Assembly: GCF_003841465.1 (NCBI RefSeq)
Contig: NZ_REFZ01000001.1
Span: 496,001-560,000 of the forward strand
DNA length: 64,000 bases
Direction: 5' to 3'
DNA from: Natrarchaeobius oligotrophus
GTDB taxonomy: Archaea; Halobacteriota; Halobacteria; Halobacteriales; Natrialbaceae
In this document: piece after piece, positions 3,136 through 19,494 of the stretch
Numbering within the stretch: the stretch's first letter is position 1
Layout of the letters: the number at the start of each line of letters is the position of its first letter
The notes under the pieces: generated by a model
What the model was told of the DNA's origin: nothing
Database searches by the model: none
The model's input: the letters and a program-made list of their open reading frames with translations, nothing else
Position numbers and translations under genes: made by a program

Positions 3136-3363
3136 ACTGATTCCTGGTTCCGGGTGATCGTACAAAGCTCTCGCGAACGACGAACGGTCGCTGACGGTGA
3201 CGAAACAGATCGTTGACCTCTGTCGGCGGACAACAAAGAACGTATTACCCACCTCGCCAAGGGTAGCGTAAGAACGTATGCGGCAGGTCACGACCCCGCT
3301 TTCGAACCAGGATACGGCGACCGACCGGTCGGATCGTCCCGCCTCGACGCGGGTGCGATAACG

Positions 3364-3771
3364 ATGTTGCGCCGCCTCTGGAAGCGCCACGTTACGGGCC
3401 GCCCCGACCAGTACCAGGCGTACGTTTCGTTTCCACCGACGACCGACGGAACGCCCGTCGCCAACGCCCACGACTGGATCGAAGAACTCGAGTACACCTT
3501 CGAGGGCCGTCTCGACGTCTACGCTCGATTCCAGGGTATCGCGGTCGTGACGGACCGCGTTCCGGCGGACGAGTTCGACGCGGCCACCTTCGAGACGATT
3601 CTCGATCGGCTCGAAGATGCGTACACGGGGACGCACCGACTCGTGCGCCTCGAGAAGTGGCGACCGATCGACGACAGCCTGGTGAGGTCGTACGTCGTCG
3701 TCCCGGTCAAACCGCTCTTTCCATCCGATTCGGCCGAACGGCCCGAAATGGCACCTTCGTCGACCGAGTGA
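3364..3771 (+). CDS. Conserved haloarchaeal hypothetical protein
   Basis: This 135-residue soluble protein has a compact alpha/beta look, with regular hydrophobic strands (YQAYVSFPP, IAVVTDRVP, VRSYVVVPV) and no membrane segment, signal or known motif. Its codon use and acidic composition match its neighbours, so it is probably real. A 27-codon open frame (3278-3361, starting MRQVTTPLSNQ) ends two bases before its ATG; this could be a leader peptide or chance. It converges on the mechanosensitive-channel-like gene, with 15 bases between stops. Function not recognised. Confidence 0.65.
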   Translation: MLRRLWKRHVTGRPDQYQAYVSFPPTTDGTPVANAHDWIEELEYTFEGRLDVYARFQGIAVVTDRVPADEFDAATFETILDRLEDAYTGTHRLVRLEKWRPIDDSLVRSYVVVPVKPLFPSDSAERPEMAPSSTE

Positions 3772-18728: not shown

Positions 18729-18789
18729 TACCGGTGAGGCCGCAGACGAACCGCGGCCCACCGGTACTGACTTCCAGCAGTCAGTATCA
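18729..18789. repeat. Palindromic repeat element, copy C
   Basis: Arms TACCGGTGAGGCCGC (18729-18743) and GCGGCCCACCGGTA (18753-18766) pair with a single bulged base around a nine-base loop. The flanking CAGTATCAG again overlaps the stop codon of a minus-strand gene (the zinc-finger gene ending at 18787), just as copy A overlaps the dehydrogenase stop. This position fits a 3'-end or terminator role. The core is unrelated to copies A and D at sequence level. Confidence 0.6.
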
Positions 18790-19041
18790 GTCGGTACGAC
18801 GGCCAGATTCGATCGGCGCTGACCGCCGCGGTTCGCCCGCGAACTCGAGCATCCCGCCGGCGGCGACGCAGTCGGGACAGTACGTCCGACCGACGGGCCG
18901 GTATCGGCCGGCGAGTTCGGCACACGGCTCGACGACGAGGTGGATCACTCGAGCCTCCGGGATCGACTCGTCACACCGATCACAGATCGTCGTCGGACGA
19001 TCGGTGTCCGTCGCGTCGCCCGGATCGTGCCGGGAACTCAT
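18787..19041 (-). CDS. Small zinc-ribbon protein
   Basis: The 84-residue protein has two CxxC knuckles, ICDRCDESIPEA (about residues 19-30) and TYCPDCVAAGG (about 55-65), which should bind one zinc. No enzyme motif is present; the family is unknown to me. Such small haloarchaeal zinc ribbons are usually nucleic-acid or protein adaptors, which is inference. I chose ATG 19041 (MSSRHDPGDATDTD); an upstream extension to 19203 is low-complexity and overlaps the candidate RNA region. It is transcribed downstream of that candidate RNA on the same strand. Confidence 0.7.
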   Translation of the reverse strand: MSSRHDPGDATDTDRPTTICDRCDESIPEARVIHLVVEPCAELAGRYRPVGRTYCPDCVAAGGMLEFAGEPRRSAPIESGRRTD

Positions 19042-19139
19042 CGGCGAATCCTCTCGAGGCGCGTGCTGAGGACTGCAGCGGGAGGATGGCCGTTCTCGAG
19101 GATCGGTCGGTGGTCGATGGCGATACGACGCTGTCGTGC

Positions 19140-19282
19140 GAGACCTTTTTGTCTCGGTGGCAGGAACGTAAGCATGGCAACCGGGTGAGAGCTTGGAAGC
19201 CACACGCTTCGGGTGTCACGACCACCCGGGGCATTTCGTACGCATGCCCCCGCGTCCGCTTTTGGAGTCGCGCGGCTTCCAT
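19140..19282 (-). ncRNA. Candidate structured non-coding RNA with four-way junction
   Basis: The 453-base gap 19042-19494 has no convincing gene but shows dense pairing. Read on the minus strand, GGAAGCC (19280-19274) pairs with GGCTTCC (19201-19195) to close a domain. Inside are three hairpins: a bulged stem over 19252-19273, a perfect 7-bp stem GGGGCAT/ATGCCCC (19228-19234 with 19244-19250), and an ACAC/GTGT stem capped by C-TTCG-G (19202-19216). A minus-strand TATA-like TTATATTA (19304-19311) lies about 26 bases before the first base of the closing helix. A GAGAC/GTCTC hairpin (19140-19155) follows. It could be an independent RNA or a leader of the zinc-ribbon gene. I do not recognise the family. 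Confidence 0.4.
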
Positions 19283-19494
19283 CGTGACAGTCGTTCTGAA
19301 GGATAATATAATTAGTGGATGTGGTCGGAAGAACACCAATCAAAGAGGGAGACAACGGATAGTAGAGCCGAGCGACGGGGTTCAACGCCGAGATGGTGAA
19401 TCAACCGTAGACATTTTTCGTCCGAATTTTCGTCCTATCCAACGGGACAGATCCGTAATAAAGAGTTTTAGTCCGCTCTTTCGTACCGACACCC

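Follow-up and report, generated by a model that had tools for sequence, protein, structure and literature searches.

The window, i.e., the whole stretch of 64,000 nucleotides of Natrarchaeobius oligotrophus that was analysed (contig NZ_REFZ01000001.1, positions 496,001 to 560,000), contains on its minus strand the 5′ leader of an operon, made up of a promoter, a structured 5′UTR, a leader ORF (ORF1) and a zinc-ribbon ORF (ORF2), in which the stop codon of ORF1 overlaps the start codon of ORF2 (ATGA). The promoter lies at the 5′ edge of the RNA and an ORF is continuous with its 3′ part, as expected for a leader RNA at the head of an operon that encodes proteins. The parts of the locus are given below in window positions; the RNA start at about 19282 is a prediction from the TATA distance.

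19304..19317, minus strand: TATA box and adjoining conserved promoter bases (CACTAATTATATTA); alignment of 41 copies, position-specific peak in close and remote copies
19176..19282, minus strand: structured leader RNA (5′UTR, about 107 nt); covariance model match of 159.8 bits, covariation
19274..19281, minus strand: P1 5′ strand (TGGAAGCC); covariation
19228..19251, minus strand: P2 hairpin (GGGGCAT/ATGCCCC); covariation
19239..19256, minus strand: short pseudoknot of ACGC (19255-19252) with GCGT (19243-19240), across a P2 strand; double changes in the close family
19211..19227, minus strand: P3 hairpin (GGGTG/CACCC); covariation
19194..19201, minus strand: P1 3′ strand (GGCTTCCA), doubling as the anti-P1 5′ strand; covariation with both partners
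19176..19185, minus strand: pre-AUG segment (CCCGGTTGCC), the anti-P1 3′ strand; weak in the window copy (−5.4 kcal/mol)
19038..19175, minus strand: ORF1, 45-aa leader ORF (MLTFLPPRQKGLAR...); frame and stop/start overlap kept in most copies
19139..19156, minus strand: P5 hairpin (CGAGAC-AAAAAG-GTCTCG), inside ORF1; arms covary
18787..19041, minus strand: ORF2, 84-aa C4 zinc-ribbon protein (class 1); weak eS26-like resemblance

An earlier note on this DNA had proposed a candidate new structured RNA preceded by a TATA-like element, and that element (19304-19317, minus strand), the pairing of GGAAGCC (19280-19274) with GGCTTCC (19201-19195) about 73 nt away, the further hairpins inside it and the second hairpin downstream (CGAGAC-AAAAAG-GTCTCG, 19156-19139) were all confirmed. 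The four-way junction of that note was revised to a three-way junction, conservation backing P1, P2, P3 and a short pseudoknot and the third inner hairpin not being conserved. The reported TTCG tetraloop had been read from the wrong strand, the minus-strand RNA carrying only the complement CGAA. The statement that no coding frame explains the region fails for its 3′ part, where ORF1 starts at 19175 and holds the second hairpin. The proposal of a new structured RNA itself stands, on strong covariation, an aligned promoter and the lack of an Rfam family; the stand-alone non-coding RNA that it implied gives way to an operon leader whose structure continues into ORF1.

Folding of the single RNA sequence from the window was only moderately better than that of shuffled sequences (z = −1.8), and the case for the RNA rests on the family. 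A BLAST search with the 183-bp region showed many copies in the genus Natrarchaeobius and its relatives, and 41 copies entered the close-family alignment. In the genome that holds the window, 20 copies were found with covariance model R1, which also reached other families, and 23 with the broader model R2, the last three being weaker. Matches to R2 at E ≤ 1e-5 were present in 178 of the 292 haloarchaeal genomes of a class-level sample, these E-values being rough owing to a short calibration of the covariance models. When the phylum was sampled, 15 genomes matched, all of them members of the same order, and the covariance model gave no match in 164 genomes of other classes. At orthologous sites located through the ferredoxin neighbour in other genera, no convincing copy was found. 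Outside the Natrialbaceae, unusually many weak R1 matches (17 and 7) were obtained in the genomes G207 (family f4) and G045 (family f10), perhaps reflecting separate expansions.

The compensatory changes in relatives, which the earlier note had named as a check, are present. P1, P2, P3 and P5 covary strongly across 53 distinct copies, statistics that lean towards the model because the copies were found partly by structure. In alignment A4 (89 distinct remote sequences), which was fitted to the model so that its figures lean the same way, 91.5% of cells pair, double-change cells number 545 against 172 in shuffles, and the covariation score is 0.581, as compared with 0.168 for shuffled alignments, slid controls reaching no more than 0.09. 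Neither the anti-P1 and P5 tests described below nor the lack of matches in the control genomes depends on this fitting in the same way. In the close family, double changes occur at all four pairs of the pseudoknot in the P2 loop, for instance in copies L096 and L116. The TATA motif peaks 22-25 nt before model position 1 in 28 remote copies, whose TATA region lay outside the search model, as it does in 60 close copies, which places the RNA start at the edge of P1; the agreement of promoter and helix edge was thus correctly judged in the earlier note to exceed chance.

Again and again among the copies, the segment immediately preceding the AUG is similar to the P1 5′ strand, and the P1 3′ strand can therefore pair with either of them. 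This second pairing (anti-P1) was absent from every covariance model used. When matched and swapped partners were compared in the 53 distinct copies, the P1 3′ strand covaried with the 12 nt before the AUG with z = −11.5 (0 of 2000 permutations), the three controls giving z = −2.8, 0.4 and 0.9, of which the first, a matched control, is mildly negative. When each distinct P1 core was represented by a single copy (38 copies), the covariation held (z = −9.9). The anti-P1 helix terminates exactly at the AUG in 50 of the 53 copies. By constrained folding the P1 and anti-P1 states are nearly equal in energy, with a median difference of 2.4 kcal/mol, which rose to 6.4 kcal/mol when the segment was taken from another copy (p = 1.5e-6). 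The anti-P1 hairpin forms in the close family too and is weak in the window copy, a point that speaks against the switch.

Covariation is seen in the P5 arms too, with z = −10.1 against −0.5 for a control window. The N-terminus encoded there (PRQKGLAR or PRHKRLAR) is likewise conserved in the classes of the Natrialbaceae; a purely peptide-coding role for this stretch was nevertheless rejected, since the stems covary across proteins with unrelated N-termini, which argues that P5 is conserved as RNA and not through the peptide alone.

Operons of the Natrialbaceae combine the leader ORF with a small zinc protein of class 1 (CDRCG...YCPDC) or class 2 (CPRCG...PCGC). In the genome of the window, ORF1 and an overlapping CxxC ORF2 are kept in 16 of the 23 copies, and all 12 full-length class-1 genes follow an RNA copy. 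The ORF1 frame and the stop-start overlap with ORF2 are preserved in most copies despite a varied linker length. In the G001 copy of the window locus (L109), a CA-repeat (HTHTHT...) joins ORF1 in frame to the zinc-protein frame, and in place of the ATGA overlap there is an apparent fusion of 208 aa. Genomes with at least 20 class-1 zinc-protein paralogues occur in one related genus.

The AlphaFold model of the window ORF2 (mean pLDDT 77.8, core above 90) had eS26 as its top Foldseek matches (best E = 0.019, TM 0.46), and a profile search of PDB sequences placed two archaeal eS26 chains first (E = 1.7e-4 and 2.6e-3). The Pfam family Ribosomal_S26e matched none of the 23 ORF2 members, no Pfam S26e match was found in the own genome, and several zinc-ribbon families scored similarly for ORF2 in Pfam. 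The resemblance of ORF2 to eS26, a weak one drawn from the sequence and the structural model, may serve as a lead and does not amount to membership.

Outside the Natrialbaceae, the leader precedes genes for SWIM zinc proteins, tyrosine integrases, PadR and other regulators and small Cys-rich proteins, in operons that belong to viruses, proviruses and plasmids. Such a variety of downstream genes points to no trigger. In L373 and L388, the ORF2 behind the leader is about 300 aa long with a weak Csm3 match (L388: PADLOC E = 0.0012) and is possibly RAMP-like. Covariance model matches were obtained in the viruses SNJ2, Halfgib1, Harhisp1 and HHPV4, and before the first operon genes of Humcor1 and the ACAM34 viruses, with a weak match in BJ1; a pattern scan of viral contigs gave mostly chance palindromes and two convincing matches. 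The match in SNJ2, a pleolipovirus of Natrinema (E = 6.5e-9), lies directly before the integrase operon. A review (PMC8371274) describes two start sites for this operon, with a proposed role in lysogeny control, in an account that does not mention the RNA structure. In HHPV4 (L395, KY264020) the annotated minus-strand ORF2 (3153-3518) overlaps the plus-strand leader match (3215-3343) that precedes the integrase, and its annotation may be wrong.

A search of Rfam 15 gave no family for the window at the gathering threshold, for the region of the element at E ≤ 5, for 20 related loci at E ≤ 1 or for 17 related loci at E ≤ 0.5, and returned only tRNA and a chance match. The 'xerDC' RNA motif, considered as a candidate, was set aside when no Rfam match appeared; Rfam would include this motif if it were curated. 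No earlier description of the leader was found in the open-licence literature, which, given that scope, is weak evidence of novelty. The leader is a predicted RNA structure absent from Rfam, with hundreds of copies, that heads certain mRNAs of haloarchaea and their viruses.

The family, its promoter alignment, the alternative helices, the in-ORF hairpin and the coupling of the ORFs are evident from the sequences, and we consider that the leader is probably a bistable, cis-acting 5′ element that controls translation of mobile-element and regulatory operons. Transcription would begin at the base of P1, which would close a three-way junction with P2 and P3. Alternatively, the P1 3′ strand would pair with the pre-AUG segment, giving the anti-P1 hairpin, whose end coincides with the AUG. 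The region before the AUG would be free in the P1-closed form (probably the ON state) and sequestered in the anti-P1 form (probably OFF). P5, with its A-rich loop about 25 nt into the ORF, would be placed just past the end of an initiating ribosome, and in the Natrialbaceae a short leader peptide would be coupled to the small zinc protein via the ATGA overlap. The action on translation, the ON/OFF assignment and the existence of a trans-acting trigger (protein, ligand or antisense RNA) are inferred from this arrangement. As in translational riboswitches and their expression platforms, the helices are mutually exclusive and one of them sequesters the start region, so that on sequence evidence access to that region would be controlled; unlike them, the haloarchaeal leader has no known aptamer or ligand and no Shine-Dalgarno sequence, carries an extra hairpin in the ORF and precedes many unrelated genes.

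A constitutive element for ribosome positioning, IRES-like or downstream-hairpin-like, would account for several of these features. Two hairpins bracketing the start codon would mark the right AUG on leadered mRNAs devoid of a Shine-Dalgarno sequence, with nothing being switched. The exact ending of anti-P1 at the AUG agrees with such a role, as do the many unrelated downstream genes and the P5 loop, fixed at about +25 to +31 in most copies. In the 26S mRNA of alphaviruses the spacing between the AUG and a downstream hairpin (DLP) is likewise fixed, at about +25; P5 is alike in this spacing, with sequence and host unrelated. This explanation appears unlikely as the whole account, as it leaves unexplained why the P1 3′ strand is complementary to two partners at near-equal energy.

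Another alternative is that an antisense RNA starting near the start codon targets the leader, and that their pairing leads to cleavage or block. The model would be transcript T1 of the virus phiH, which has a mapped start and whose leader is covered by the antisense RNA T(ant) (PMC4284463). In phiH1 (L400 2646-2850, MK002701) the 5′ end of T1, AGAGC, is repeated directly before the AUG, to which the start of T(ant) is adjacent. The T1 leader is like the family in its length of about 150 nt, its mapped start and the repetition of the 5′ motif before the AUG, and, by eye, in a GTAAC-AAAG-GTTAC hairpin at a similar distance inside the ORF; it differs in being regulated by antisense RNA and in giving no covariance model match, and as the resemblance is at eye level alone phiH1 was not accepted as a member. 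The P5 loop could act as an opposite-strand TATA box in the close family, an assignment that is weakly supported, and the opposite-strand TATA score is mostly low in remote copies. With phiH unmatched by the model as well, antisense targeting is improbable as the main function, and both it and constitutive positioning could coexist with the switch.

A trans-acting small RNA, its gene merely lying upstream of small ORFs, would fit the compact structure, the own promoter and the many dispersed copies; it is rendered quite improbable by a structure that takes in the start codon and the P5 hairpin in the ORF, and by an ORF1 that reaches the overlapping start of ORF2. A mobile DNA repeat (MITE-like) devoid of RNA function, suggested by a dispersed, multi-copy element, is made very improbable by the gene-like divergence of copies that retain promoter, structure and ORFs, by compensatory pairing bridging about 70-80 nt, and by the copy beside a dehydrogenase gene that is common to three species of the genus. 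In most paralogues the flanks outside the unit of promoter, RNA and ORFs cannot be aligned with one another.

If the bistable reading is extended, the leader might serve the mobile elements of haloarchaea in general as a regulatory device, governing access to the start codon where a Shine-Dalgarno sequence is lacking and so gating integrase and regulator synthesis as a lysogeny switch. The Natrialbaceae would have taken it over and amplified it as a control for a family of eS26-like zinc proteins, with the mRNA exit channel of the ribosome as a possible binding site. This wider proposal is tentative. The SNJ2 integrase operon leader resembles the family in its model match directly before the operon. 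The leaders of ribosomal-protein genes are similar in being structured 5′UTRs before a gene whose product, in the family of the window, may resemble eS26; the present family differs in that most downstream genes are mobile-element genes.

To our knowledge, regulatory leader RNAs of natural origin have been described in only a few archaeal cases. The family touches the question of how the start codon is chosen on leadered haloarchaeal mRNAs without a Shine-Dalgarno sequence. Many small ORFs that lack annotation are also flagged by the leader, which offers an entry point to the control of lysogeny in archaeal viruses. Since it occurs in the majority of the sampled haloarchaeal genomes and in tractable viruses (SNJ2, HHPV4 and Humcor1), both leader-based regulation in archaea and start-codon choice could be addressed in laboratory strains.
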